Assembly (NCBI GenBank): GCA_020726365.1
Contig: DYSC01000010.1
Coordinates: 1 to 33,702 of the forward strand
Direction: 5' to 3'
Length of the DNA: 33,702 nucleotides
From: Porphyromonas sp.
GTDB lineage: Bacteria > Bacteroidota > Bacteroidia > Bacteroidales > Paludibacteraceae
In this document: positions 12,645 to 33,464 of the stretch, one piece after another
How the letters are laid out: each line of letters begins with the position of its first letter
Numbering within the stretch: position 1 is the first letter of the stretch
Notes under the pieces: generated by a model
Database searches by the model: none
What the model was told of the DNA's origin: nothing
What the model saw: the letters and a program-made list of their open reading frames with translations, nothing else
Position numbers and translations under genes: made by a program

Positions 12645-15176
12645 ATGAAGAAAATTTTATTCTTATTCTCATTATTTGTTCTTGCATTGCCATCGGTCAT
12701 GGCTAAATCGAGAACTCAATCAGAGGCTTATCAAATAGCTAATAGCAACAAGATAAAGTCGTTAAACGGAGCTAAAAAAGCGAGTGCAACTAACGAGCAG
12801 TTGGTAATAGCTTACAGCAAAAGCTCAAAAAACAAAGATGGGAAGTTAATTGCTTCGTATTACGTATTTAACAAATCAAACAATGCAGGGTTTGTAATAG
12901 TATCGGGCGATGATAGAGCAAAGCAAATATTAGGATATAGCGATGAAGGTAGTTTTGATCAAAACAACTTACCTGAAAATTTCAAATATTGGTTATCTCT
13001 TTACGAAAACGAAATTATGCAATTGCCATCAATGGAAGTTTCTATTCCTAATGCCACACAACAAATTGTTAATAGCCAACCCCTCAAAACTCCCGATGTA
13101 TTTAATTTCGAACCATCTATTTCTCCACTTTTAGGTCAAATAAAATGGGATCAAGATGCACCATACAATGATTTGTGTCCATTGATACCTCCAGAAAACA
13201 CCTCTCGCTCGGTAACAGGCTGTGTAGCAACAGGTATGGCTCAAGTAATGAAGTATCACGAGTGGCCAGTAACAGGTACCGGTTCCAAAACATACACAAC
13301 TTCTACTCATGAAATTAATTTATCGGTGAATTTTGCTAATACTACCTTTGATTGGGCTAATATGGCTGACACTTACAGTGATTCAAGTACAACTGCTCAA
13401 AAATCGGCTGTTGCAACTTTGATGTACAATTGTGGGGTGGCAGTAGAGATGGATTATGCGGAATCAAGCGGCGCCTACACAACAGATATGGCAAAAGCAT
13501 TGCGAGATAATTTTGGTTACGACCCCAATTTACAACAATACTACAGAAACTATTATTCCAGAACGGAATGGGAGGATAAAATTAAATCTGAATTAAATGC
13601 TTTTCGTCCTGTGCTGTATGCAGGGCAGTCTTCGGAAGGTGGACACTTGTTTGTGTGTGATGGGTACGACAGTAATAACTTATACCATATAAATTGGGGT
13701 TGGAGTGGAACTTCAAATGGGTATTTTGAATTGTCGGCACTAAACCCATCTACTCATGGCGTAGGTGGTGGAGTTGGCGGTTTTAATAGTGGACAAGACA
13801 TTGTTGTTGGAGTTCAAAAGCCAACTTCTTCTTTACCTTCTTACCTGCTTTTTATGAGTGACACCTTACAAACTAACGTAAAGACTTTAGCATTGTCGGG
13901 TAATGTAACAATCACTGCAACAGATATGTATAATAGAGGTGTTAATAATTACGGGGCAAAATTTACTGTTGGATTGTATGATAATAGCGGAATTTTTATT
14001 CAAACAGTAGCATCTACTACATCTACTACTATTAACTCTAATTATGGTTATTCATCGATAGACAAAATAGTAACTTTACCAACGTTAGCCAACGGAACTT
14101 ACCGATTGTATTATATCTACAAAGAGTCTTCAGCTACGGCATGGACTATTGTGAGGGCTCCGGTAGGCACTTCAAACTATGTACAAGTAACAGTTAATAA
14201 CAATCTGGCAACATTTGACTCTACTCCTACTGCAGTGTATCCTAACTTACAACTTACTAATTTGAGTGTTGTCGGTAATATCTATCAAAATCAAAATGCA
14301 GAATACCACCTAAGCATTACCAATAGTGGAGCAGAGTACAACTCAGCAATGATTTTGTACTTAGAGTCAAAAACAGACGAAGACGTTTATGAAATTTTGA
14401 CTACTGATCAAATAAACATTATTAATGGAGAAACTAAAGATTTTACAATAACAGCTAAAACAACATTGGCTCCAGGCGAGTATTACTTGTCGGTGGTATA
14501 TGATCCATTAAACAATTATGATGTTATGTCAACTGGCGATGTGTTGGGTACAAGTATTTTAAAATCGATACTGGCTACTCCAACTCAAGCACCTGCATTG
14601 TCGCTTACTACAGCTATTTCGTTTCCAGATGCAAGCCACGTTTACAAAAGTACCGCTCAATTAACAGCAGTTGTACAAAACACAGGTGGTTTGTTTGATA
14701 ATAAAATGATAGCATTTATTTTTCCATCAACGGGAGGTCAATCTTTGACCTATAGTGGCTACCAAGATGTGTTGATTGACAATGGACTAACCAAAACAGT
14801 AAAATTTAATAACCCTATTGATCTATCTGCAGGCAACTACAAAATAGGTGTATATTATTATAATAATGGATGGAATCGGCTGGGCAGTACTTTGAATTTT
14901 ACATTGTTGGATGATATTACTTCAGTAAACAAATCAAGTATCTCAAATGAATTATTGATATTCCCTAATCCTGCGTCTGATTTTATTTCATTTAGCACAT
15001 CGGAAAACATACAAGAAATTTTGATAGTTGATATGTTTGGTAAAAATGTATTGTGTATGGGAAGTTCAAAACAAAATCAATTCACTATCCAAATTAGCCA
15101 CTTATCATCTGGAACTTATATTATTAAAGTGAAAACAGATAGTGGAGTAAAAGTTAATAAGTTTATCAAACAATAA
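12645..15176 (+). CDS. C10 family (streptopain-like) cysteine protease with Spi-like prodomain and T9SS type A sorting domain
   Basis: Signal peptide, prodomain, catalytic Cys in TGCVATGMAQVM, His in GGHLFVCDGY, YHINWGWSG; C-terminal LLIFPNPASDFISF…SSGTYIIKVKTDSGVKVNKFIKQ. Confidence 0.93.
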   Translation: MKKILFLFSLFVLALPSVMAKSRTQSEAYQIANSNKIKSLNGAKKASATNEQLVIAYSKSSKNKDGKLIASYYVFNKSNNAGFVIVSGDDRAKQILGYSDEGSFDQNNLPENFKYWLSLYENEIMQLPSMEVSIPNATQQIVNSQPLKTPDVFNFEPSISPLLGQIKWDQDAPYNDLCPLIPPENTSRSVTGCVATGMAQVMKYHEWPVTGTGSKTYTTSTHEINLSVNFANTTFDWANMADTYSDSSTTAQKSAVATLMYNCGVAVEMDYAESSGAYTTDMAKALRDNFGYDPNLQQYYRNYYSRTEWEDKIKSELNAFRPVLYAGQSSEGGHLFVCDGYDSNNLYHINWGWSGTSNGYFELSALNPSTHGVGGGVGGFNSGQDIVVGVQKPTSSLPSYLLFMSDTLQTNVKTLALSGNVTITATDMYNRGVNNYGAKFTVGLYDNSGIFIQTVASTTSTTINSNYGYSSIDKIVTLPTLANGTYRLYYIYKESSATAWTIVRAPVGTSNYVQVTVNNNLATFDSTPTAVYPNLQLTNLSVVGNIYQNQNAEYHLSITNSGAEYNSAMILYLESKTDEDVYEILTTDQINIINGETKDFTITAKTTLAPGEYYLSVVYDPLNNYDVMSTGDVLGTSILKSILATPTQAPALSLTTAISFPDASHVYKSTAQLTAVVQNTGGLFDNKMIAFIFPSTGGQSLTYSGYQDVLIDNGLTKTVKFNNPIDLSAGNYKIGVYYYNNGWNRLGSTLNFTLLDDITSVNKSSISNELLIFPNPASDFISFSTSENIQEILIVDMFGKNVLCMGSSKQNQFTIQISHLSSGTYIIKVKTDSGVKVNKFIKQ

Positions 15177-18162: not shown

Positions 18163-18966
18163 ATGTTGAAACTACTCTTAAAATTATCAGTTTACATATT
18201 AATTATCAATCTTTTAAGTTCATGTATAACTTCGAAGACGATAAACTATTTACAAAAACCCGGATTTAATATTCCCGCATACATAGATAGTATTAGCTTT
18301 ACCGACTACCGATTGCGCGTTGGCGACCGCATTTATGTGAAAATATTTTCGACCGACGACATGACAAATGCCTTGTTCAATGCTGGTATGGGTGATAATA
18401 TAGGTATGATGAGTGGCGGAGCCGGTTCCGATTTGTACACTTACCTTGTTGAAGAAAGCGGAAGTATAGTTTTTCCGATGATTGGCGATGTGGCTGTTGT
18501 TGGCAAAACAGTTCGTGAAGCTACTATTATTCTCGAAAAAGCCATTGATCCTCTTTTTAAATTCAGTTCAGTTGAATTACGTGTGCTCAATCGTTCGTTC
18601 AGCGTTATCGGTAACGGGAATTCTGCATTTATCAACATGCCTCAGGAAAAAATAAATATTTTTAAGGCATTGGCATTGGCAGGAGATGTGGGCATGTTCG
18701 ACGATAGAAGCCGTATTCGTGTGCTTCGCGAGACAGAACATGGCGTACAAATTAAAATGTTCGATTTGCGCAGTGCCGATTTATTACACTCTGAGTATTT
18801 TTACATTGAACCTAACGATGTAATTTATATTCAGCCTCTTAACGAACAGTTTTTCAGAATAACAACTTTGCCTGCCCTTGTTTCGACAGTTATATCTACT
18901 TTCTCATTAGGTATTTTAATTTACGATTCGGCAACCCGAATAGCTAACCCCTCCACAAGTAATTGA
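18163..18966 (+). CDS. Polysaccharide export lipoprotein (Wza-like) 1
   Basis: Lipobox LLSSC; poly_export/SLBB-type sequence (DYRLRVGDRIYVKIFS, IEPNDVIYIQP). The ORF track starts at GTG 18145; ATG 18163 fits the promoter and signal peptide better. Confidence 0.88.
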   Translation: MLKLLLKLSVYILIINLLSSCITSKTINYLQKPGFNIPAYIDSISFTDYRLRVGDRIYVKIFSTDDMTNALFNAGMGDNIGMMSGGAGSDLYTYLVEESGSIVFPMIGDVAVVGKTVREATIILEKAIDPLFKFSSVELRVLNRSFSVIGNGNSAFINMPQEKINIFKALALAGDVGMFDDRSRIRVLRETEHGVQIKMFDLRSADLLHSEYFYIEPNDVIYIQPLNEQFFRITTLPALVSTVISTFSLGILIYDSATRIANPSTSN

Positions 18967-18974
18967 AAAAGTAT

Positions 18975-19721
18975 ATGAAAAAACACACATTCATACTTAC
19001 AGTTTTACTTGTAGTGCTGGGATTCAGTTCGTGCTACAATTACAAAAGCATCGGTTTACTGCAGGATAGACCTTCGCTGCCGGTATATCCAAAAGCCGAG
19101 TACGAGGATTATAAAATCAGAATAAACGATGAGGTGATTTACAGACTTATCACATCAGACGAAACTATTTCGAGATTGATACAATCGGGAACAGGTAGTG
19201 TAAATTACATGATGTCGTATCGTGTATATCCCGACGGAACCATCGATTTACCTTTTATTAAAAACATAAAAGTTGTGGGATTAACCTTGAAAGAGGCAGG
19301 TAAGGCTGTTGAAAAACGTATGCGTGAAATTATTCCGGATGCCGAAGTAAAATTATCCATTGCTAACAAAACTTTTATGGTTATTGGTGAGGCTGGTACC
19401 GGAGTTTATAACATTACCCGCGACCGATTTACCATTTATCAGGCATTATCTATGTCGGGTGAAATTCGACATTCTGGTGATTATCAGCGGGTTAAAATAC
19501 TTCGCGAGAGTGACAGCGGCACACAAATTTTGGAGTTTGATATTCGTCCGAAAAGTATAATTGAATCAAAATACTATTATATTTATCCGAATGATATAAT
19601 TTATGTACAGCGCGCATCTTCGGCATTTTATAAAGTCGAAAATTCGTGGAGTAACTTTGTGGGAGTAATTTCTTCTTCATTATCGTTGCTGTTCACAGTT
19701 TTATATTATCAAAGGCTGTAA
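18975..19721 (+). CDS. Polysaccharide export lipoprotein (Wza-like) 2
   Basis: Lipobox LGFSSC; DYKIRINDEVIYRLIT, IYPNDIIYVQR; paralogous to the preceding gene. Confidence 0.87.
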   Translation: MKKHTFILTVLLVVLGFSSCYNYKSIGLLQDRPSLPVYPKAEYEDYKIRINDEVIYRLITSDETISRLIQSGTGSVNYMMSYRVYPDGTIDLPFIKNIKVVGLTLKEAGKAVEKRMREIIPDAEVKLSIANKTFMVIGEAGTGVYNITRDRFTIYQALSMSGEIRHSGDYQRVKILRESDSGTQILEFDIRPKSIIESKYYYIYPNDIIYVQRASSAFYKVENSWSNFVGVISSSLSLLFTVLYYQRL

Positions 19722-19739
19722 ATTGTAGAATTTAAAAAT

Positions 19740-22148
19740 ATGGATCAAAATAAACCAACCGCTCCGTTTAAGGAAGAAGAAGAATCGAGTTTCGATTTGA
19801 TGGAATGGGTAAATATATTTCTTCACCATTGGTACTTATTTGTTATTTTCGTAGTGCTGTCGTTAGGATTTGCTTATCTCAAAAACCGCACATGGAAAGC
19901 TACTGTAAAAGTGTCCGGCACAATGCTTATCGAAGAATATAAAACAACAAGTAATACACAAGCTCTTATGCAGGGTTTTGGTGTAGATGATGGTTTCAAA
20001 AACACACACAATCAGGTGATTATGCTTAGCTCGTACGATTTAATTGGTCGAGTTGTGGATAGTTTACCACAGTTGCGCGTAGATTATATAACCAAAGGCA
20101 ATTTTAAAACCCGAAGTTTGTATACATCCTCTCCTATTCTGATAAAACCCGATTATATTGCCCCTGAAGCGTTTAATCTATTTTATAAAATCAGTGTTCA
20201 TTCCAATGGTACCTATACCATTACAATTGAGGATAACAAACAATATGCTGATTTTAAATTAAATGGAAAAATAGGTGAGCCGCTTTCGAACAACTTGTTT
20301 TTTATAACTATTTACAATACAAATAGTTATTACGGTAGCAGTGAGCTGTATTTTCAGTTTCGTTCGCGCGAATCGCTTATTGGCGATTTTGCCAGCCGAT
20401 TGTCGTTCAACTATGTTAAAGAAGGCTCTTCGGTACTCGAAATATCGCTTGTCGGCGAAACCCCCGACAGGGATATTGATTATATAAACAAACATTGTGA
20501 GATATTTTTGATGCAAAATTTGGAGCGAAAAAACGATGCTGCCAACAAAACCATAAAATTTATTGACGAGCAACTTGAAACGGTCTCTAAATCACTTTCT
20601 GTTTCGCAAAACGAAATGACCGATTTTCGTCAACGCAATCAAATTATCAACGTAGAATCGCATGCAGGCGAATTGATTGGGAAATCGAATGCTTACGAAA
20701 ATCAGGAAGCTACTTTTAAACTAAAGGAAACATATTTGGATTACCTGACTAAGTATTTGAGAACCAATCTCGAGGATGGTTCAGTAGTAGCACCTTCGAG
20801 CCTTGGTTTGAACGAACCTATGTTGTTGGGGCTTATAAGTCAGATAAACGATTTGAACCTGAAGCGCAGTAGCTTGAGCGAAAAAAACATGTATTACAGT
20901 AAATATACAAGCGACATTGATAATGTGAAAATCGCAATTAATGAAGTTGTAAAAAGTATGCGTGCATCGCTCAATATCGATAAAGCCGATCTGAGAGAAA
21001 AAAACGAATTGGTTAAAAAAGAAATTGAACAACTTCCGGGAAAAGAAATTGAAATGACATCTATCCAACGAAAATACCGAATGGATGATAATTATTATAC
21101 TTTCTTTTTACAAAAAAGAGCTGAATCGGGAATTTTAAAATCGTCGAATACGCCCGACAATAATATACTCGACAAGGCACGTACCATAGCTGTTACAAAT
21201 GCCGGAACACAATCGAAAAATACCATGATTTTTCTGATTATTGGTTTGCTTATTCCGGCTGCATTTGTAGTTCTTAAAGAATTCCTGAATGGAACTATCC
21301 GCACATCTAAGGATGTGGAGAAAAATTCCGGATTCTATCTTATTGGTTCTGTGCGTCATACAAATTCATCCGACCCGTTGATAACTATCAACAACCCACG
21401 CTCGGCATTTACCGAAATGTTCCGCGTTATTCGTACCCGTGTGGAATTTGTTGTACAGCGTAAGAAAAAAATTATGCTTATGATAACCTCGGCCGAATCG
21501 GGCGATGGAAAAACCTATTTCTCTATAAACCTCGCCGGTGTATATGCCATGGCAAGTAAAAAGGTATTGCTTGTCGACTTAGATATTCGTAAACCAAGTA
21601 TTCATGGTCGCTTTAATATTAATCCCGCACAGGGAGTTACCAATTATTTAGTTGGGCAGGCTGAATTAGACGATATTATTATGCATATTCCGGAGCTCGA
21701 ATATGACTTTTTGCCGGGTGGAACTATTCCACCAAATGCCGGTGAACTTATTCGTTCCGAAAAATTAGTTGATATGTTTGTGGAACTCCGCAAACGGTAC
21801 GATTTTATTATTGTGGATACAAGCCCGATTGGCATAGTTGCGGATGCCTACGCTATTTCACATTTATCGGATATCAACTTGTTTGTGGCTCGTAGCGGCA
21901 AAACCAATAAGTCGCATTTTGCAAAAATTGCAAAACAAATCAAAGCCGACCACATTGACCCGTATTGTGTGCTTAATGATGTACTCAACGATGAAAGCCA
22001 TTATTCGAGGTATTATTCGCGCAGGTATGGTTATGGCTACGGCTATGGTTCAGGTTATGGCTATGGCTATGGCTATGGAGGTTCGCGTCGCCAAAAAGAA
22101 GCGTCGGCAAAATACTTTCAATATTATCAGGACGATAAAGATTTATAA
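19740..22148 (+). CDS. Wzc-like polysaccharide co-polymerase / BY-type tyrosine autokinase
   Basis: Wzz N-terminal domain, Walker [17 protein letters not shown], Walker A' [14 protein letters not shown], Walker [11 protein letters not shown], tyrosine-rich C-terminal tail. Confidence 0.93.
22024..22082 (+). repeat. Imperfect hexanucleotide tandem repeat (GGYTAY)n encoding (GY)n in the BY-kinase tail
   Basis: Units GGTTAT GGCTAC GGCTAT GGTTCA GGTTAT GGCTAT GGCTAT GGCTAT GGAGGT. Confidence 0.9.
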
Positions 22149-22180
22149 TTTTTTTCAAATATAAATTAAATTTAAAAAAA

Positions 22181-23329
22181 ATGGGGAAAGTTGCACTTAT
22201 TACCGGAATTACAGGACAAGATGGGGCTTATTTAGCCGAATTGTTATTAAAAAAGGGATACACCGTTCACGGCATTAAGCGCCGCTCATCGTTGTTCAAT
22301 ACCGATCGTATCGATCACCTTTATCAGGATCCGCATGTGGATAATCGTAATTTGATTTTACACTATGGCGACATGACCGATTCGATGAACCTCACACGTA
22401 TTATTCAGGAAACTCAGCCTGACGAAATTTACAATCTGGCTGCTATGAGTCACGTAAAAGTGAGTTTCGATACACCTGAATATACTGCCAATGCCGATGG
22501 TATTGGTACCCTGCGTATTTTAGAAGCTGTTCGATTACTGAATTTAACGCAAAAAACACGTATCTATCAGGCATCTACATCCGAACTTTACGGTTTGGTA
22601 CAGGAAATTCCTCAAAAAGAAACAACGCCATTCTATCCGCGTTCGCCTTATGCTGTGGCTAAAATGTATGCCTATTGGATTACGGTAAACTACCGTGAGG
22701 CTTATAATATGCATGCGAGCAATGGTATTTTGTTTAATCACGAATCGCCTTTGCGGGGTGAAACTTTCGTAACGCGTAAAATTACCCGCGCGGCAGCCCG
22801 TATTGCTATGGGTATGCAGAAAAAAATGTTTTTGGGTAATCTTTCGTCGCAGCGTGACTGGGGACACGCCAAAGATTATGTACGTGCTATGTACCTGATT
22901 TTGCAACAAGATGAACCAAGCGATTATGTGATTGCCACTGGCATAACAACCGAAGTACGTGAGTTTGTACGCATGGCATTTGGTGAAATTGGAATTGTTG
23001 TTGTATTTAAGGGCGAAGGCGTCAACGAAAAAGGATTTATCAGCAAAATAGACGAAACTGTATTTTCACAAAATGTGGGTGAAGAGTTTGTTGACATGGT
23101 AAAAAACATTCAACACCCAATTGTAGAAGTGGATGCAGCTTATTTCCGCCCGACAGAAGTGGAGTTGCTGATTGGTGATGCTACCAAATCGCGCACCAAA
23201 CTTAGCTGGACACCCGAATACGATTTACCTGCATTGGTAAAAGACATGATGCAATCGGATGTAAAATTAATGAAAAAAGAAACATATCTGAAAGAAGGCG
23301 GTTTCCGTATTTTAAATTACTTTGAATAA
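22181..23329 (+). CDS. gmd: GDP-mannose 4,6-dehydratase
   Basis: [59 protein letters not shown]. Confidence 0.97.
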
Positions 23330-23342
23330 ATTCAGTATATTT

Positions 23343-24395
23343 ATGGATAAAAACGCAAAAATATACATTGCAGGACACAATGGAATGGTAGGTTCGGCTA
23401 TCAAACGTAATTTAGAAGCAAAGGGATATCTGAACATTATCGTGCGGAGTAAAAATGAACTTGATTTGTTAGATGGTATGGCGGTAGCGATTTTTTTTGC
23501 TGCCGAAAAGCCAGAATATGTGGTACTTGCTGCCGCAAAAGTAGGTGGTATTATTGCCAACAATACCTACAGAGCGCAGTTTATTTACGAAAATTTGATG
23601 ATACAAAATCATGTTATTCATCAAAGTTATGTAAATGGCGTAAAAAAATTGTTGTTTCTCGGTTCATCCTGTATTTATCCGCGCAATGCCGCTCAACCCA
23701 TGCGCGAAGATGCCCTTCTGACTGGTATTCTTGAATTGACAAACGAGCCTTATGCTATAGCCAAAATTGCAGGTATAAAAATGTGCGAAGCCTATCATGC
23801 ACAGTATGGTTGTAATTTTATTTCGATAATGCCAACCAATTTGTATGGTCAGAATGATAATTACGATTTAGAAAAATCGCATGTACTTCCGGCATTAATA
23901 CGTAAAATGTTGCTTGGTAAATGCCTCATGAATAATGACATTGATGGACTCCGTGCCGACATGGACAAGCGTCCCATCGAGGGTGTAAATGGCTCGTACA
24001 GCATTGATGTAATAATGGATGTATTAAAAAAATATGGTATAACAAAAATAAATGATAAAGTTACAATTACACTTTGGGGTACCGGATCACCCATGCGCGA
24101 ATTTTTGCACGTAGACGATATGGCCGACTCGAGTGTGTTTTTGTTGCTGCATTACGATGCACCCGACGAATTACCATCGCATGTTAATGCCGGTTGTGGT
24201 GAAGATTTATCTATCAAAGACCTTTCGGAAATTGTACGTAAAACGGTTGACTATCAGGGAGAAATTGTTTGGGATACAACAAAACCCGATGGCACTCCAC
24301 GAAAATTGCTTGATGTAAGCAAACTTAACGGACTTGGTTGGAAGCCTTCGGTTACAATTGAAGAAGGAATTCGGAGAGTTGTAGCAAGTTACTAA
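23343..24395 (+). CDS. fcl: GDP-L-fucose synthase
   Basis: IYIAGHNGMVGSAIKRNLEAKGY, LGSSCIYPRNAAQPMREDALLTG, PMREFLHVDDMADSSVFLL. ATG at 23343 preferred over the TTG at 23322. Confidence 0.96.
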   Translation: MDKNAKIYIAGHNGMVGSAIKRNLEAKGYLNIIVRSKNELDLLDGMAVAIFFAAEKPEYVVLAAAKVGGIIANNTYRAQFIYENLMIQNHVIHQSYVNGVKKLLFLGSSCIYPRNAAQPMREDALLTGILELTNEPYAIAKIAGIKMCEAYHAQYGCNFISIMPTNLYGQNDNYDLEKSHVLPALIRKMLLGKCLMNNDIDGLRADMDKRPIEGVNGSYSIDVIMDVLKKYGITKINDKVTITLWGTGSPMREFLHVDDMADSSVFLLLHYDAPDELPSHVNAGCGEDLSIKDLSEIVRKTVDYQGEIVWDTTKPDGTPRKLLDVSKLNGLGWKPSVTIEEGIRRVVASY

Positions 24396-24421: not shown

Positions 24422-24460
24422 AACGCTGGAGATACATTAAAAAGTATTTTCAGCGTTTTT
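24422..24460. terminator. Intrinsic terminator between convergent fcl and lipoprotein gene
   Basis: AACGCTGGAGATAC / GTATTTTCAGCGTT 14-bp stem (two G-U pairs on the + strand) followed by a T tract. Confidence 0.8.
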
Positions 24461-24861
24461 TATTTTCGGGAATATACTGCTTCGAAAAACACATCCCGTT
24501 CGCCATCGTATATTGTATAATTCAACTTTATTTGGGTATATGGTGTACAAATTCCGCTAAATGAACGTAAAATATGACCCGAAGTAGGCTGCTGTAAAAG
24601 CTCAATACTCGTTCCATCTATCCTCACCACAATCATTTGATTATCACCCGTATCGAAAAAGTTTCGAACAATATATTGTGTAGTATCTATCGAATTTCGG
24701 TCGACAATAACCATGTACGGCTGAATATAACCATTTACCGAACTTGTTTCCTCACACTTCCAACTCCCCGAATAAAAAGTATAAAACGTTGGCTCATTGC
24801 TGTTTGTACAAGCAATAAGCAATATTGAAAGTATAAAAACTAAACTCAAATTTTTCAGCAT
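24460..24861 (-). CDS. Small putative lipoprotein, unknown function
   Basis: 133 aa, lipobox LLIAC; 30 bp downstream of the TonB receptor gene on the same strand. Confidence 0.7.
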   Translation of the reverse strand: MLKNLSLVFILSILLIACTNSNEPTFYTFYSGSWKCEETSSVNGYIQPYMVIVDRNSIDTTQYIVRNFFDTGDNQMIVVRIDGTSIELLQQPTSGHILRSFSGICTPYTQIKLNYTIYDGERDVFFEAVYSRK

Positions 24862-24891: not shown

Positions 24892-27003
24892 TTACAAACC
24901 AAGAATTGCTTTGAAAAACACATTTCGACCTGCTTCGTAATAATCCAAACCACGCGTACCAAACAAATGATTTTTGTATGCTTTATCCAATAAATTTTCG
25001 ACTCCGCCTACAATTTTTAAAGTAGTGCCTTTAATTTGGATATCAACCGATTGAATATCGAAATTAAAAATAACATGACCCTGTGTTTTCACTTCAGTTT
25101 CGGCAGCTTCGTTTTGCGTTACAGCCCATTGCGCAGCTATGCCGGCGTTGAAGTATTTTGGCAAACGGTAATTTAGTTGCGCTAAACCATGTATGGGTGG
25201 AATTTGAGTCAGAAATTTGAGAGTTTTTCTGTCCTGAGCTCTTACATACGAAGCATTTGTGTAAAATACAAACTGCTTGCTAATTAGCCAATTTAACTCC
25301 ATTTCGGCTCCGGTAAATAATGCCTTATTTATATTGTTTGAGATTAAAGCAATAAAAGGAGTTCCGTTTATAGGCGTATAAGTTCCGGTAGTTTCAGCAA
25401 TTAAATCAAAAATATAATTAGCAAAAACATCCGCTTTAATACTCAGATTGCGACCAGAGAAAATATAACTTAAGTTTGAAAAACCGCCTTTTTCGGGATT
25501 TAAATCGGGGTTTCCAATTTTTGGTGTGCCCCCAACATCAACGTATTTGTAACGTTCCTCGATAGTGGCAACACGATAAGCCGTTGCGAGCATCAGCGTT
25601 AGCTTGTTTCGTTTGGCAAGTGTGTATTCAAAATCGACATGAGCCGAATACGAAAAATCGGGTTTTTCGGATGGTAAAATTCGAGCAACTCTGCCTGTAT
25701 TATCTTCTGTACGCACGCCATTATCTATTTTGTAGCGAAATAATTCTTTGAATAATGTATCGTTTGAGGTTTGAAAATAATCCAACCGAACACCAAAATT
25801 AACAGTAAAGTATTTGGGGTCAATTACTTTTTTATACAAAGCAAAAGCACCTACATTCAGCACTTTAGCCATTGGCGAAGGCTGCTCACCATAAACAGTA
25901 GTATCGGCAGCGGCTTGTAGAATATTGATTCGCATGGTTTCCGATTTACGCAACCAACTATCTACACCCACAGTCATAGTGTTGTAGTCGTTGAAATACA
26001 AATTGGCAGTAGCTTTAACGCCCGAAGTAGAATTTAAACTTGAAGGTAAAATATAACGAGTGGAAGTTGAAGCCGGTTTAAAGGTATTTTCCACATCCCG
26101 ACTGATATTTTGCGTATAACCCTTAATACTCAACTTTGTAAGCATATCCGAAATATCTGAAAATATATATTCGCCATTTAACTGTCGACGTTTTATACTT
26201 AGATATCTTACTGTTGCATATACATTAGGTATTGGCAGTTTAAAAGCATCATTACCCGGAATACCAATATCCCAACCGTAAAATTCGTTGTAGCCAACTA
26301 CCAATTCCTGATTGTCGCCGTAGCGCATTCCACCTTTCAGCGACCACGAAGCATCGTTAAATTGACTATTGAGCAATTCGCCTTTAGCAGTCATAGTATT
26401 TCCGGCTTTCCGATAACTTCCGGTTGCGCTAATATACCAATTATTGTTTGAAAAATTGATTTTTGCAGCATTTGCTATAAGATTATTAACCGTACAAAAA
26501 CCGGTTTGAATATTTCCTTTTACCGATAAATTTTCTGAAAATGCCGGACGTTCTGAAACAAAATTCACAACGCCACCCATTGTACCCGAACCGAAAAGCA
26601 CTGAACCTGCACCTTTTATCACTTCAATTTTTGCCAACTGATCCAACGAAACCGTTGATAAAACTCCTGCAACATCGGTTGCCGATTGAAGTCGGTCGCC
26701 ATCTACCAATAGCATTAAGCGTTGCTCGCCCATTCCGCGTACATTTACCGAAGTTCCCCAGCTGCCATCGCGCGACAATGCAATTCCGGTTTGAGTTTGT
26801 AGCGCATCGGCAGGCGTTCTGAAGTTTTGTTTTTCAAATTCTGATTTGTCAACTGCTATGTATGGAAGCCCTATTTTGTTCGAAGCGATACTATAAACCG
26901 TAACTTCTTTTATTTCTTTTTGATGAATACTGTCAGTTTGTGTTGTAACTGAGTCGTTTGGAAGTGAAAAAAGTACAGAGAGTAAAATGGTTATAAAAGT
27001 CAT
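24892..27003 (-). CDS. TonB-dependent outer membrane receptor
   Basis: Signal peptide, plug domain (TPADALQTQTGIALSRDGSWGTSVNVRGMGEQRLMLLVDGDR, IEVIKGAGSVLFGSGTMGGVVN), C-terminal barrel. Confidence 0.93.
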   Translation of the reverse strand: MTFITILLSVLFSLPNDSVTTQTDSIHQKEIKEVTVYSIASNKIGLPYIAVDKSEFEKQNFRTPADALQTQTGIALSRDGSWGTSVNVRGMGEQRLMLLVDGDRLQSATDVAGVLSTVSLDQLAKIEVIKGAGSVLFGSGTMGGVVNFVSERPAFSENLSVKGNIQTGFCTVNNLIANAAKINFSNNNWYISATGSYRKAGNTMTAKGELLNSQFNDASWSLKGGMRYGDNQELVVGYNEFYGWDIGIPGNDAFKLPIPNVYATVRYLSIKRRQLNGEYIFSDISDMLTKLSIKGYTQNISRDVENTFKPASTSTRYILPSSLNSTSGVKATANLYFNDYNTMTVGVDSWLRKSETMRINILQAAADTTVYGEQPSPMAKVLNVGAFALYKKVIDPKYFTVNFGVRLDYFQTSNDTLFKELFRYKIDNGVRTEDNTGRVARILPSEKPDFSYSAHVDFEYTLAKRNKLTLMLATAYRVATIEERYKYVDVGGTPKIGNPDLNPEKGGFSNLSYIFSGRNLSIKADVFANYIFDLIAETTGTYTPINGTPFIALISNNINKALFTGAEMELNWLISKQFVFYTNASYVRAQDRKTLKFLTQIPPIHGLAQLNYRLPKYFNAGIAAQWAVTQNEAAETEVKTQGHVIFNFDIQSVDIQIKGTTLKIVGGVENLLDKAYKNHLFGTRGLDYYEAGRNVFFKAILGL

Positions 27004-27040: not shown

Positions 27041-29269
27041 TCAGCTTTTCTTTGTTGCTTGATATAAATTGTAATAATTTGATTTTAACGCAATTAATTC
27101 GTTGTGCGTGCCATGTTCAATAATTTCACCTTTGTCGAATAAATAAATTTCGTCAGCCCATTGCACCGAAGTGAGCCGATGACTAATGATAATAGCCGTT
27201 TTGTTTTCGGCCATTTTGCGAAGCGAGTTCATTATTCGCGTTTCAGAATAAACGTCCAACGCACTCGAAGGTTCATCCATAATCAACAATTCGGCATTTC
27301 TATAAAAAGCACGCGCAACAGCTAATTTTTGCCACTGCCCCATGCTTAACTCTTCGCCACCATAAAAAATATTCCCTAAAATGGTATGATAACCGTTTGG
27401 TAAATTATCCAACACTTCGTGAATGCCGGCAGCTTTAGCGGCTTCGGTAATTTTTTCCAAATCGGGCTTTTCGTCAATATTGCCTAATGCAATGTTTTGC
27501 AGCGCACTTACATTATACAATGCAAAATCCTGAAAAACTGCGGCCATATTTTTCGAAATTGCCTGCTGACCAAGTGTTTCGGTGTTCTTATCGTCGTAAA
27601 AAATTTGTCCGGCAGTAGGCATGTAAAAACCACAAAGCAATTTTATAAAAGTCGATTTGCCGGAACCGTTTGCACCCACAATGGCTATCGATTTTCCAGC
27701 TGGAATGGTGATGTTCACATTTTTCAACGCCTCTCGTTTACTTGTTTCGTAACTAAAACTTACATTTTCAACCCGAATGGACTCTTTTAACTCCATTTTA
27801 GATTTAGAATGAATATTACGATTTTTAATTTCGAAAAACTTACGTACATCTTCCAAATAGCTGGTATCTTCGAGTAGTTGTGTACCCGATTTAAACAGCT
27901 CACTCAGCACACTATATCCTCGCTGAAAAGCAAAGAAAAACAGCACAACAGCACCTATCGTTATTTCGCCCTGAATTTTGAGATACGACACATACGCCAA
28001 CGAAGCAAAAATTAGCAAAACCGTAAAAAGATGTGATGCAATATTCCAACTCACTTCCGATTTGCGCAATACTATTCGTTCTCCAAAAAGTCGCTTTTGC
28101 AGGTTTTTGAAACGAATAGAAAAAAATGAACTAAAATGAAAAAGTTTTATTTCTTTTGCAAAGGGAAAGCCGGTCAAAATTCGGTTGTAATAATACATTT
28201 CGCGCTCAGCCGGACTTTGAGCATCTTTTAATTTGTGAAAACGACGAGCAAATTTTACACGAATCAACACTCCCGGAATAACTGCAACTATAAGCATTAC
28301 AACCAAATACCATTTTATTGTCAGAAATAATCCGGCTAAAAACACAGCCGAAGACATGGATTTCAACAGCGTTAAAAGCTCGTTTACAAATTTCACGGGG
28401 CGATAAGTGGCTTCCTGAACGGCACGATGAATTTTATCTAATTCCGTTGAATTTTCGAGATGCGATAATTGCAGCGACAGATGTTTGTGCTGTACATTGG
28501 CATACATGCGTTTGGCTATGGACTGAGTGAGTTTTTCACCAAAAAAACCACGCAATTCGGTAGTTACTCCATTGGACAAAAACACCAAAGCCGTTAAAAT
28601 GAGTAAGCCGTAAAAACTAAATACCTGATTAGTAGACTCATTAGTAGTTTGCGTCAGATAATCAATCAACCATTTTATACAGATGATTAATACAAATGGC
28701 AAAACTCCCTGCAAAAAGGCAATAATTGCATTCTGAAAGATTTCTTTTTCTGACCCTGTAGCAGCTAAATTGTAATTGGTACGAAAATTTACAAACTTGC
28801 TTTTTACTCTCCAAATACGATTTGAGACTTGCAATAATTTATTGTTTAACAACGTTATAGCATTGGGAAACAACAGTGTAAACTTTGTCCGAATAAATTG
28901 AGAAAATGAATTTACGCTTTTGATTTTTCCGTTTATAGTTGCCGAAATAACTTTACCAACCAATTCCTTTTCGTTAAAAAGCGAGTCGTAATGGCGGTTG
29001 TTATCTCCTTTAGCAAGAAAGTACAGATGTCCGTTTTCGTTCTTTGTTTTTAAATAACGGTGAGCTATAAATTTGCTGTTGTGTTTGAAAACTAAAATAT
29101 CACCACGTTTCACTTTATCGGGCGTACACTTTTCGACATGAGCCGTATCGCCGTTTTTTAATGTAGGGAACATGCTATATCCCTGCATCTTAATTTCGAG
29201 CGTCAATGCATCATCGAGCAATGCTTCCACAAAATCGTGAAGTTGCGTGTTGTTATCTTTGTTATTCAT
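27041..29269 (-). CDS. ABC exporter (TM + ATPase) with an N-terminal S26/S24-type signal-peptidase-like domain
   Basis: N-terminal QGYSMFPTLKNGD…KRGDILVFKHNSKFIAHRYLKTKNENGHLYFLAKGDNN; C-terminal Walker A GANGSGKST, signature LSMGQWQKLAVARAF, Walker B LLIMDEPSSALD. Confidence 0.92.
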   Translation of the reverse strand: MNNKDNNTQLHDFVEALLDDALTLEIKMQGYSMFPTLKNGDTAHVEKCTPDKVKRGDILVFKHNSKFIAHRYLKTKNENGHLYFLAKGDNNRHYDSLFNEKELVGKVISATINGKIKSVNSFSQFIRTKFTLLFPNAITLLNNKLLQVSNRIWRVKSKFVNFRTNYNLAATGSEKEIFQNAIIAFLQGVLPFVLIICIKWLIDYLTQTTNESTNQVFSFYGLLILTALVFLSNGVTTELRGFFGEKLTQSIAKRMYANVQHKHLSLQLSHLENSTELDKIHRAVQEATYRPVKFVNELLTLLKSMSSAVFLAGLFLTIKWYLVVMLIVAVIPGVLIRVKFARRFHKLKDAQSPAEREMYYYNRILTGFPFAKEIKLFHFSSFFSIRFKNLQKRLFGERIVLRKSEVSWNIASHLFTVLLIFASLAYVSYLKIQGEITIGAVVLFFFAFQRGYSVLSELFKSGTQLLEDTSYLEDVRKFFEIKNRNIHSKSKMELKESIRVENVSFSYETSKREALKNVNITIPAGKSIAIVGANGSGKSTFIKLLCGFYMPTAGQIFYDDKNTETLGQQAISKNMAAVFQDFALYNVSALQNIALGNIDEKPDLEKITEAAKAAGIHEVLDNLPNGYHTILGNIFYGGEELSMGQWQKLAVARAFYRNAELLIMDEPSSALDVYSETRIMNSLRKMAENKTAIIISHRLTSVQWADEIYLFDKGEIIEHGTHNELIALKSNYYNLYQATKKS

Positions 29270-30116
29270 TTTCAGTGATGTAGGTCACTACACTTTCGTC
29301 GGGTACAAAACCGAGTTCGTAAATCGGTGTTGCCGAACATAAGTCTGAGAAGAACTCTAATCGTTTGTTGATAAACGACTTATCAAAATTATTTTGTATG
29401 CAAAATGCTATTACTTTCGAAACGGCTAATGCTCCACTTAGTTTTTTTGCTTTATTTTCGGGGTAATGACTAATCAGATAAATGGCACTTAATGGCGCTT
29501 TTTTCGACTTATCAACATAATACATTGGTGTATTATAAACAAAAAACTGACCATTCGTTTTGCGAATTACCAAGCGGTCGTCGTTAATTATTTGCGAACC
29601 TGCATTTGCCCAAATCATCGACATAGTACTTTTCCCTGCACCCGAAAAGCCACTAAACATACGTCCTTTTTTGCCATCGAAAGCACAAGAAGCATGCATC
29701 AAAACAGCATCCGTAAGCAGCGTAAGGTAATGCATAATGATGGGACCCATTGGATATTTAAGCGCCATTGCATTGCGACTGTGAATTTTCCAATAGTTGA
29801 ACGCAGCATTCAGATAAGCAATTTGTTGAATTTCATCTTTCGTTTGCTGGTCGAATAACACAAAGCAATAACCCTCCGAGGTTTCGTAAATGGAATAAAA
29901 TCGCTGTTCTTCATTTTTAGCCTCAAACAAAAGTTTCAATGCATCGAAATCAACTTCGGGCAAACCCTGAAAACATTCCACTTCTATGTCGGCTTTTTCG
30001 GTTTTTTCAACCAAAAACGGCACATAACCGGCTTCTAATTCAATTGCATTTTTCGAAAAAACATGAAGAATAATTTCAGCAATTGAAATATTAAATTCAA
30101 ATCCAAACTGATTCAT
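29262..30116 (-). CDS. HprK-like (HPr kinase/phosphorylase-related) P-loop kinase
   Basis: FSGFSGAGKSTMSMIWANAG P-loop and INDDRLVIRK; 284 aa; overlaps the next gene by 8 bp. Confidence 0.83.
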   Translation of the reverse strand: MNQFGFEFNISIAEIILHVFSKNAIELEAGYVPFLVEKTEKADIEVECFQGLPEVDFDALKLLFEAKNEEQRFYSIYETSEGYCFVLFDQQTKDEIQQIAYLNAAFNYWKIHSRNAMALKYPMGPIIMHYLTLLTDAVLMHASCAFDGKKGRMFSGFSGAGKSTMSMIWANAGSQIINDDRLVIRKTNGQFFVYNTPMYYVDKSKKAPLSAIYLISHYPENKAKKLSGALAVSKVIAFCIQNNFDKSFINKRLEFFSDLCSATPIYELGFVPDESVVTYITENE

Positions 30117-30119
30117 TGC

Positions 30120-30404
30120 TTAGTTGTTGTATTTTTCTAGCATATCCATTTGCGACAAAAAAGTTTCAACATCACGTTGAGCCGTTTGTTCGTCGATATC
30201 GAATTCAGCTGTCATTAGAGCCGAAATTTGTGCAGTAGTTTTATCTTCCGATACGTTTTCCCAAATAAACTTGCCCGTTTCATTTAATGTGAAAAGCTCA
30301 TTCATTTGAGCTACATTACCACTTAAAGGCACTATAACTAATTCTTCGGCTACCTGACGAGCAACAAACTTTGACTTAATGCGGCTGAGTGTTTGAATAT
30401 CCAT
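30120..30404 (-). CDS. PqqD-like / RRE-type peptide chaperone
   Basis: 94 aa with PqqD pattern (LFTLNETGKFIWENVSEDKTTAQISALMTAEFDIDEQTAQRDVETFLSQMDML). Confidence 0.85.
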   Translation of the reverse strand: MDIQTLSRIKSKFVARQVAEELVIVPLSGNVAQMNELFTLNETGKFIWENVSEDKTTAQISALMTAEFDIDEQTAQRDVETFLSQMDMLEKYNN

Positions 30405-30482: not shown

Positions 30483-30517
30483 AATAAAAAATCCCCGAGT
30501 TTCGGGGATTTTTTATT
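30483..30517. terminator. Strong hairpin between precursor-like ORF and pqqD-like gene
   Basis: 16-bp perfect stem (AATAAAAAATCCCCGA / TCGGGGATTTTTTATT), 3-nt loop, A/T tracts on both sides. Confidence 0.88.
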
Positions 30518-30520
30518 GTT

Positions 30521-30694
30521 TTAAACCAATTCATTTTTAAATGGATTGGGCTGACTTGGCTCTACGTTATTTGTTTCGGAAGGTCCAATAGGTGGACTTG
30601 ACTCAAGTTGCAACGAAATATCCGTATCAATTTCAATTTTTTCAATAATCGGTAGTGAATACTTTTGTCTATCAATTCTATCTGCTTTTTTCAT
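30521..30694 (-). CDS. 57-aa putative RiPP-like precursor peptide (MKKADRIDRQKYSLPIIEKIEIDTDISLQLESSPPIGPSETNNVEPSQPNPFKNELV)
   Basis: Complete ATG-TAA frame not in the supplied track (below about 60 aa); adjacent to PqqD/HprK/ABC genes; charged leader-like N-terminus with YxxP motif and Pro/Ser/Asn-rich C-terminus. Confidence 0.72.
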   Translation of the reverse strand: MKKADRIDRQKYSLPIIEKIEIDTDISLQLESSPPIGPSETNNVEPSQPNPFKNELV

Positions 30695-30725: not shown

Positions 30726-33464
30726 TTAGATAGTAACTTTTACATTGTACACTTTGCCTTCGGACTGAAGTTTAACCAAATATACACCTGATTTAAAGGC
30801 AGTTGACAAAGTAGTTGTTGAATTTTGTACACTTTGGTGCATCAGTTTCTGACCAGCTGCATTATAAACCGCAATTGTAGCATTTTTCAAAACCACGTTA
30901 TCGCAATTCACAACAATCTGATTGCTTTCGTTTTTTTGGATTCGAATTTTATTTTCGAAAGTGCTGAAGCAGCAGCCACCTGTTGTAGTGCCTTTAGTTC
31001 TGAAAACCAAGCTAAAACGATTGGTTATATTCACTGCTGCAGAATTAAAAGTATATTCCAAACCTTCGGTCAAAATGGTTTCGGTAGTACTTCCATTTCT
31101 ATCAATTAATACCAATTCGGTATCTGAGTTAAAATTCAGTAATTGACTAGCTTTTAATTTGAAACTGACATTCGCATCAGTATTGCCGGTGCGGAAGCCT
31201 AATGGAATTTCAGTGTCTAACTGAATAGCATTAAAACCGTTAATAACAAGATTTTTATTATCACTTAATGTATATATTTCAGGAGAACCAGCCTCATCAT
31301 TAAACATTTTTTGCGAATCGTAGTCATCGAATGTATTTAATGCATTCTGATTAAAAAGAATCACGGCTTCATCTTTGTCAGTACCGGCAGCAATTTCCAA
31401 ACGAGCTAACTTTTGGGTCCTAAATGCAGGTGCTTTTAATCGGTTTGTAGCAACCGACTGATCCTGATGTGAACGCATAACATTTGTGAAGCCAAAGGTG
31501 TTAGTTGCACTCGTGGTTTTAATCCAGAAACTCTGAAGTGGAGGTATAATTGCCGAACCATCGTTCGCACCAACATTAGCGGGCACATTATAAGTCTGAA
31601 AAACATAAGAACCACTGCCTTTACTGCGATACCAAATTGAAGTTTCAACATTTGTTTTTGTAGCCTGAGCAAAATCAACATACGAAGCATAAGGATTTCC
31701 AACTAAATTAAAACCTGCTGGCAAATTAGTTACCGATTTATCACCAGTGTTTAATGACCCGCCTGTAAATTGAATTGTTTTATCTCCATTAGGCGATTCT
31801 GCAATATAGCCTTTCATCACATCCATTGTCGCTCCGGCATCAGTCCAAGCACTTCCATTCCAGTAAACTAATCCGTTTCCTGTTTCAGTTGTAATTGTGC
31901 TACTTGTGGCAGCCGAAAGTGGACTCGATATGTACCAGTTACGACCAGTTGTGCCAGTTGCAGCACTCGAAACAAATTGTTCAACCACTGTTGTACCCGA
32001 ACCATCTACAGTACCAGTTATTATAGCGGCAGTACCAACACCATTAGCTGATTTTAATGTTAACGTTCCATTGTTGGTTAATGCAGTGCTTACTGTGAAT
32101 TGTTTGGCGGCACTTAATTCTAATGTTGCACCAGCCGAAATTATCAAACTTCCTGTCGCAGTTCTGTTTTCATTTACTCTTACTTTTCCAGATGCTACAG
32201 TAATATTTTGAGGAATTTCGGTTGTCGACCAAGTTTTATCTAAAGCATTAACATCATAAGTTGCTGAAGCACCCTGATTGAACTTCAAAATAGAGCCGGT
32301 CCCATAAAAACCTGTTGGAGGATTTGTTGAAATAAAACCTCCGCTGCCAATTTCTAAAGTTCCAGTTAGTGAAGAATTTTCTCCAGACGAAGTCCCAACA
32401 TTAGAGCTTCCACCCGTTTTATTAATTGTCAGATTTTGAAATACTATTGTTCCCGAAATGGCATGAATGGCATCGCCACTACTTGGTGCTCCTGTAAATA
32501 CCACGGTAGAACCACCTGTGCCATTTGCCCAAGTTCCATTGTTTGTAAGTGTTGTTGACGAGCCTGCTGTTGATTTCGAAATTGTTAATGTACGGGGTGA
32601 GGCATCGCTTGCAGTGAAAGTTGAACCCGAATTAATTGTTAAGCCCGAAACCGAAACGTCGGCATCGAGGGTTATATTGTGATCTTGTAAGATTGTAATT
32701 GAAGTCGCCGAACTTCCTGGTACTAAAGTAGCAGTTCCCCAGTTTGTTGTGTTTGAAGATGACTCCCATGAACCTACGGCACTCCAATTTCCAGAAGTTT
32801 TAGATCTAAAGTTATCAGATGCTGATGACGTTATTGTGAATGTAGCCGTAACATCTGAACCATCGTTTGCATTGAAAGATCCACCATTATATTGCATTCT
32901 ACCAAGAGCCTGAAGTTTTAAATTATACGTGCCAGGAGTTCCTGGATTTATATTTGTTATTCCATTGTCATATCCAACTACTCTATCATTTCCAGATGTG
33001 CATACAACTTGAGAAGCACCATTGCCATTGCCATAATTTCCAATGTAAATTTCTAACCAACCGCCGGGTTCAGAATCACCTTGCTTCCATACCTTATACA
33101 ACAACTTTCCAGCTACCCAATCACTACTATTTGTCCAACCTACAACTGCAAAACCTGCAATTTGAAAAGTTTCAGATGACGTTAATGTACCCAAATCTTG
33201 ACTACTAAAATCAGCAGCACTATTAAATTGGTAATTACCACAACCATTATAACTCCAAGATACATTATGAGCCTTGTACCATGTTTTTGTACCGTTTTTA
33301 TTAATATAAATTCCTTTGTACCCAATTCCTCCATCTGCTAAAACTAATTGTGAGAAAAAAGCAAAAACTATTATAAGCAAAAGGCTATTAATAGAAAATC
33401 TAAAAGGTAAATTGATAAAATTCAAGTAATTGAATTGAGATAATTTTTTCTTCATAACAAACAT
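30726..33464 (-). CDS. Large secreted protein with T9SS type A sorting domain
   Basis: Signal peptide (FAFFSQLVLADGG), long Ser/Thr/Gly-rich beta repeats, C-terminal AVYNAAGQKLMHQSVQNSTTTLSTAFKSGVYLVKLQSEGKVYNVKVTI. Alternative start at 33455. Confidence 0.88.
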   Translation of the reverse strand: MFVMKKKLSQFNYLNFINLPFRFSINSLLLIIVFAFFSQLVLADGGIGYKGIYINKNGTKTWYKAHNVSWSYNGCGNYQFNSAADFSSQDLGTLTSSETFQIAGFAVVGWTNSSDWVAGKLLYKVWKQGDSEPGGWLEIYIGNYGNGNGASQVVCTSGNDRVVGYDNGITNINPGTPGTYNLKLQALGRMQYNGGSFNANDGSDVTATFTITSSASDNFRSKTSGNWSAVGSWESSSNTTNWGTATLVPGSSATSITILQDHNITLDADVSVSGLTINSGSTFTASDASPRTLTISKSTAGSSTTLTNNGTWANGTGGSTVVFTGAPSSGDAIHAISGTIVFQNLTINKTGGSSNVGTSSGENSSLTGTLEIGSGGFISTNPPTGFYGTGSILKFNQGASATYDVNALDKTWSTTEIPQNITVASGKVRVNENRTATGSLIISAGATLELSAAKQFTVSTALTNNGTLTLKSANGVGTAAIITGTVDGSGTTVVEQFVSSAATGTTGRNWYISSPLSAATSSTITTETGNGLVYWNGSAWTDAGATMDVMKGYIAESPNGDKTIQFTGGSLNTGDKSVTNLPAGFNLVGNPYASYVDFAQATKTNVETSIWYRSKGSGSYVFQTYNVPANVGANDGSAIIPPLQSFWIKTTSATNTFGFTNVMRSHQDQSVATNRLKAPAFRTQKLARLEIAAGTDKDEAVILFNQNALNTFDDYDSQKMFNDEAGSPEIYTLSDNKNLVINGFNAIQLDTEIPLGFRTGNTDANVSFKLKASQLLNFNSDTELVLIDRNGSTTETILTEGLEYTFNSAAVNITNRFSLVFRTKGTTTGGCCFSTFENKIRIQKNESNQIVVNCDNVVLKNATIAVYNAAGQKLMHQSVQNSTTTLSTAFKSGVYLVKLQSEGKVYNVKVTI

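Follow-up and report, generated by a model that had tools for sequence, protein, structure and literature searches.

A small peptide gene of Paludibacteraceae as a probable precursor in a lasso-like but lasso-less RiPP pathway acting with a co-encoded T9SS surface protein

The closest described systems are the phosphorylated lasso peptide pathways, including those of the paeninodin kinase and of BsfK from Bradymonas (PMC8498205, PMC10368454), which combine a precursor with a YxxP leader, a stand-alone PqqD-like RRE, an HprK-type kinase, an ABC exporter, and sometimes a nucleotidyltransferase. Lasso leaders are bound by B1 proteins of the PqqD type, which pass the peptide to the next enzyme, and nucleotidyltransferases decorate phospho-lasso peptides (PMC8498205); the YxxPxL motif is a feature of lasso leaders, and the RRE accelerates phosphorylation of a precursor serine by BsfK (PMC10368454). 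Lasso-type peptide kinases figure in these papers as add-ons to lasso synthesis. The system described here shares these parts, including an identical spacing of the kinase motif, but differs in that B2 is absent and no cyclase recurs at its loci, the peptidase is of the S24/S26 Ser/His type, the precursors are scattered and paired with type IX secretion system (T9SS) cargo genes, and a lasso-type penultimate Thr is missing. It resembles the first half of the phospho-lasso route and is not a member of the lasso family.

The window, the whole stretch of 33,702 nucleotides from Porphyromonas sp. analyzed here (GCA_020726365.1, contig DYSC01000010.1), harbors on its minus strand a precursor-like peptide gene of 57 aa at 30521-30694, with an ATG start and a TAA stop. 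The window's ORF track does not list the gene, and no model in Pfam or NCBIfam covers it. A preliminary description had proposed it; its presence on the minus strand was verified with a sequence identical to the one quoted there, and the PqqD, HprK-like kinase, and peptidase-ABC neighbors it had named are all real by Pfam and NCBIfam matches. Motif counts and conservation in alignments delimit a leader-like half, residues 1-32 (30599-30694), with the landmarks YxxP (Y12, P15), D23, ISL (26-28), and a final S32, followed by a variable Pro/Asn-rich tail, residues 33-57 (30524-30598), which is a putative core by its composition, length, and higher dN/dS. Directly 3' of the gene, RNA folding revealed a terminator-like hairpin on the same strand (30483-30517; -20.2 kcal/mol, z -6.3, with no shuffle equally good), which separates the peptide from PqqD. 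Given this strong hairpin, the peptide may be transcribed together with the upstream T9SS gene. The consensus scan did not detect this structure, probably owing to the T run being taken up into the stem, and the consensus promoter scan gave matches at chance numbers. Neither the hairpin nor the upstream T9SS type A cargo gene (30726-33464) appeared in the preliminary description, which also did not include the pairing with T9SS genes or the distance of most copies from the cassette.

The 57-aa ORF is a real gene under purifying selection. The window's genome harbors 4 copies, the one at 30521-30694 and 3 paralogs elsewhere, all of the latter behind other T9SS genes and 2 of them in tandem. A scan of GTDB genomes identified 89 relatives, of which 80 were kept, mostly from Paludibacter-like Bacteroidales, and some relatives' genomes hold about 20 different copies. 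Motifs were counted in 143 non-redundant peptides pooled from all loci, 142 of them anchored on YxxP...D, an anchor that makes the invariance of P and D partly a matter of construction. The N-terminal half follows the consensus Y..P.I..I.LD..ISL.L.S, with Y in 141/142 anchored peptides, and the tails are variable, Pro/Asn/Gly-rich (18% Pro, 11% Asn), and 10-45 residues long. The likeness to RRE-recognized leaders such as those of lasso precursors, suggested earlier from the YxxP segment, was borne out, as the YxxPx[ILV] pattern of the anchored peptides resembles YxxPxL (PMC10368454). At the D+9 position, which is not part of the anchor and corresponds to residue 32 here, Ser was found in 138/142 and Thr in 4/142 peptides, values that, like the other conservation values, are upper estimates because the search profiles are biased to look-alikes. 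A second conserved Ser, residue 27 here, is replaced by Ala, Asn, or Cys in some relatives, making residue 32 the better candidate acceptor. Pooled dN/dS over 140 pairs was 0.16 (leader, 0.12; tail, 0.22), indicating that the gene is translated and subject to selection, which is stricter in the leader. A fixed N-terminal motif with tails of differing composition is the conserved leader and variable core layout of a RiPP precursor. Among the findings that would speak against the gene, the preliminary description had listed missing conservation at syntenic loci and frameshifts in relatives; the outcomes favor the peptide, and the order T9SS protein, peptide, PqqD, kinase, ABC is kept at L076, L058/L154, and L087. 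In L002, 2 different copies (1477-1650 and 1866-2042) lie in tandem behind a single T9SS gene, followed by GC-rich repeats flanking a run of N.

The cassette downstream of the peptide comprises 3 minus-strand genes. The first encodes a PqqD-family stand-alone RRE protein of 94 aa (30120-30404; PF05402, 62.2 bits). The second (29262-30116) encodes a putative HprK/PEPCK-type peptide kinase of 284 aa, assigned by domain matches, motif, and a PDB profile. The motif H-x14-G-x2-G-x-G-K-S/T-x15-D-D was identified in full (H141, G156, G159, G161, K162, S163, D179, and D180), with the H, K, and Gly positions invariant or nearly so among 27 homologs, and its spacing equals the H148...D187 spacing of BsfK (PMC10368454). 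The PDB profile matched HPr kinase (1jb1, E 3.2e-4), and the catalytic His, the P-loop GxSGxGKS, and the DDR of HprK (HPr kinase/phosphorylase, PDB 1jb1/1kkl) align with the kinase; however, the match is limited to the catalytic stretch, and the presumed substrate is a ribosomal peptide and not HPr. The best NCBIfam relative, HprK-related kinase B (TIGR04355), scored 32 bits, far below the model cut-off of 200 bits. A structure prediction of the kinase from 3 sequences reached a pLDDT of 49, too poor for use. The third gene (27041-29269) encodes a 742-aa fusion of an S24/S26 peptidase and an ABC exporter, identified by domain matches and intact catalytic boxes: the GxSMxP Ser, His-Arg, and Gly-Asp boxes were each present in 20/20 sequences, with the Ser/His dyad kept. 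As in PCAT of the C39 type, peptidase and ABC exporter form 1 chain in Paludibacteraceae and presumably cut and export a peptide, but the peptidase here is of the S24/S26 type (GxSMxP...HR...GD) and not a C39 Cys protease, and the precursors have no double-Gly site. The cassette contains no outer-membrane factor.

At 40 kinase-centered loci, the recurring genes besides the peptide were the peptidase/ABC (36 loci), PqqD (33), and T9SS proteins (20), and PqqD adjoins the peptide in the window and in many relatives. Several Bacteroidales families arrange the locus as T9SS protein, PqqD, peptide, kinase, peptidase, and ABC, the peptidase having a gene of its own in these other Bacteroidales, whereas Paludibacteraceae have their peptides scattered behind T9SS genes, with most copies away from the cassette. 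A PF14907 nucleotidyltransferase adjoins the cassette in 4 loci (L148, L235, L237, and L250), mostly on the opposite strand; another candidate, the fifth, in L289, matched nothing in Pfam. By analogy with phosphoglycosylated lasso clusters, the PF14907 enzyme might attach a further group to the phosphate of the peptide.

Other genes flank the cassette in the window. The ABC gene is followed by one for a hemin-type TonB-dependent receptor (24892-27003, minus strand) and then by a lipoprotein-like gene of 133 aa (24460-24861, minus strand). In L076, the lipoprotein gene is directly 3' of the ABC gene, which makes the receptor look like an insertion in the lineage of the window. We considered receptor and lipoprotein as parts of the system, with a metallophore in mind, and rejected them; the receptor is absent at other cassettes, and a counterpart of the lipoprotein recurs once among them, in L076. 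On the plus strand, an exopolysaccharide locus (18963-24395) with genes for a polysaccharide export protein, a GDP-mannose dehydratase, and an epimerase comes to its end just before the cassette.

The distribution of the peptide follows that of the kinase at 4 taxonomic levels. Of the genomes from the window's genus, 9 contain peptide and kinase together and 4 lack the two. At the family level (150 genomes), the kinase was identified in 13/13 peptide-positive genomes and 2/137 of the rest (Fisher 5.7e-17); at the order level (295 genomes), in 22/27 peptide-positive genomes and 2/268 others (Fisher 2.5e-26); and at the phylum level (388 genomes), in 3/3 peptide-positive genomes and 0/385 others (Fisher 1e-7), all of these Fisher values being inflated by shared ancestry. 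The order-level counts (27 peptide-positive, 24 kinase-positive, 22 with both) include 1 kinase from a more sensitive profile, and they come, as do the others, from a survey in which many genomes are fragmented and gene models are mechanical. At the phylum level, peptide and kinase occur in the same 3 genomes, 2 of them outside the window's class. The co-occurrence holds even for peptides located far from the cassette. Further, 5 order-level genomes have the peptide with no detectable kinase, 2 of these being <80% complete with PqqD adjoining the peptide, and 4 genomes (G072, G089, G187, and G259) have the kinase with no peptide found. The split within the genus and the scattered families at the order level point to peptide and kinase having been repeatedly gained or lost together.

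The constant partner of the family is the gene in front. In the window, a T9SS type A cargo protein of 912 aa (30726-33464, minus strand; TIGR04183, 30.1 bits) lies ~31 bp upstream of the peptide. An upstream gene model was on the same strand for 137/137 peptides having one, at a median gap of 47 bp; 116 of these genes resemble the window's T9SS protein, 8 encode PqqD, and 13 are other genes, most of which end in a T9SS-like tail. The TIGR04183 sorting domain was matched in 57/60 sampled partners, placing them with T9SS type A cargo (TIGR04183/PF18962). Unlike other such cargo, the subset with a peptide gene behind it has a C-terminal module in common, a region of 415 aa in the window (30729-31973, minus strand), predicted to be all-beta, that ends in the sorting domain and was delimited by alignment, a model of mean pLDDT 84, and its distribution. 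Strong matches to the last 224 residues of the module were found in cassette-positive genomes only, with weak ones also in cassette-free genomes. A peptide lies directly behind 41/56 strong modules and is missing behind 15/56; conversely, the module directly precedes 42/47 peptides. As a control, another T9SS cargo gene of the window, the C10 peptidase at 12645-15176 (plus strand), has a 179-aa ORF behind it and no such peptide. This C10 peptidase carries an I69 inhibitor prodomain in addition to its T9SS tail. With Foldseek, the partner module had no match at E<=0.001 and no informative structural relative; its hits were only of a generic Ig/FnIII-like kind, and it overlapped weakly with the RgpB C-terminal domain (7pq4) and PorZ. 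In a distant class of the phylum, the Pfam-tested partners were also T9SS proteins, except for 1 S9 peptidase. The peptides of L275-L280, from a different class, are ~45 aa long with poly-Pro tails, remote from their cassette, and mostly behind T9SS-tailed proteins, including a subtilase with Ig-like repeats.

The proposal that the ORF encodes a RiPP precursor is supported by its syntenic conservation, by its co-occurrence with the kinase at the family, order, and phylum levels, and by its position between PqqD and kinase in other Bacteroidales families. Taken as a whole, we consider it probable that it is the precursor of a lasso-like but lasso-less RiPP pathway acting with the co-encoded T9SS protein, and it is very likely a substrate of the cassette. 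From the kinase motif with its BsfK spacing, the conserved peptidase boxes, and the literature on PqqD and RREs, we infer a sequence of recognition, phosphorylation, cutting, and export. The stand-alone PqqD would bind the leader half via its YxxPxI motif, and the HprK-type kinase would phosphorylate a hydroxyl residue, most likely Ser32, as a Ser or Thr occupies this position in every anchored relative. That the peptide is phosphorylated is reasonably likely judging from sequence, and the preliminary guess of phosphorylation fits the HprK-type active site with its lasso-precursor-kinase spacing. The S24/S26 peptidase, fused to or beside the ABC exporter, would then cut the peptide, and the exporter would move the cut product to the periplasm, with 1 cassette per genome serving several precursors in trans. 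Each precursor lies directly behind a T9SS gene, and the finished peptide would therefore most likely join or decorate that upstream protein and reach the surface with it. We rate the chance that peptide and co-encoded T9SS protein act together at the surface as somewhat less than even, and the use of this constant partner as the route of surface delivery is a guess and the most speculative step of the pathway.

Among the alternatives, an ordinary secreted RiPP, a bacteriocin or signal released as a phosphopeptide with the T9SS neighbor acting as regulator, receptor, or convenient promoter, survives best and is still unlikely. The same enzymes serve modified and exported peptides, and in several Bacteroidales families a copy lies inside the cassette itself; however, some genomes hold the ~20 different copies noted above, no immunity-like gene recurs at the kinase-centered loci, and a chance promoter leaves unexplained why the T9SS pairing recurs in another class. 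The tight pairing with T9SS genes and the location of most copies away from the cassette could also be read as an unmodified small accessory protein, a chaperone or subunit of the T9SS cargo unrelated to the PqqD cassette, but this is improbable, as presence and absence of the gene track the kinase from genus to phylum and several families have it between PqqD and kinase. A further reading takes the (phospho)peptide to regulate a process inside the cell, such as the expression of T9SS genes or the kinase itself, and leaves the ABC a different cargo. In its favor, HPr-type kinases of other systems target cytosolic regulators, and the peptide and T9SS genes point the same way; the conserved peptidase-exporter in 36/40 cassette loci and the leader/tail layout of the peptide make this quite improbable. 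A lasso peptide, in which S32-x-P-P-x-G-P-x-E40 would form a nine-residue ring, is highly improbable. Lasso clusters likewise contain a YxxPxI leader, PqqD, a kinase, and an ABC, and the Ser-to-Glu spacing of nine occurs in many members, but many relatives have no acid at the ring position, and we rejected this reading on 3 further findings: the B2 transglutaminase-fold protease (PF13471) was found in 0/19 genomes, including the window's, with the controls positive, extending the earlier observation of no B2 enzyme in the window; no asparagine-synthetase-like cyclase recurs at the 40 cassette loci; and the anchored peptides have no conserved Thr near the leader/tail boundary, at leader position -2, although Ile/Val variants of the penultimate Thr of lasso leaders are known (PMC10368454). 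A chance ORF is ruled out by the paralogs and dN/dS.

No earlier description of the peptide family was found in the open-access literature, which yielded no paper on PqqD together with HprK, RiPP, and Bacteroidetes, or on PqqD together with type IX secretion, and passages of a BAGEL4 RiPP survey of Bacteroidales (PMC10352776) do not describe it. The family is large, occurs in Bacteroidota, and has remained without a Pfam or NCBIfam model. As RRE and kinase stand here by themselves with a different protease, the sequences suggest that RRE-guided phosphorylation may be the entire modification. We tentatively envisage a surface-decoration system in which a single cassette acting in trans would phosphorylate, trim, and export a repertoire of small peptides, each dedicated to its upstream T9SS protein, the phosphopeptides being subunits or tags of these secreted proteins. 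The pairing with T9SS cargo would join 2 fields that share no open-access paper found and suggests that some Bacteroidota surface proteins have a small peptide dedicated to them.
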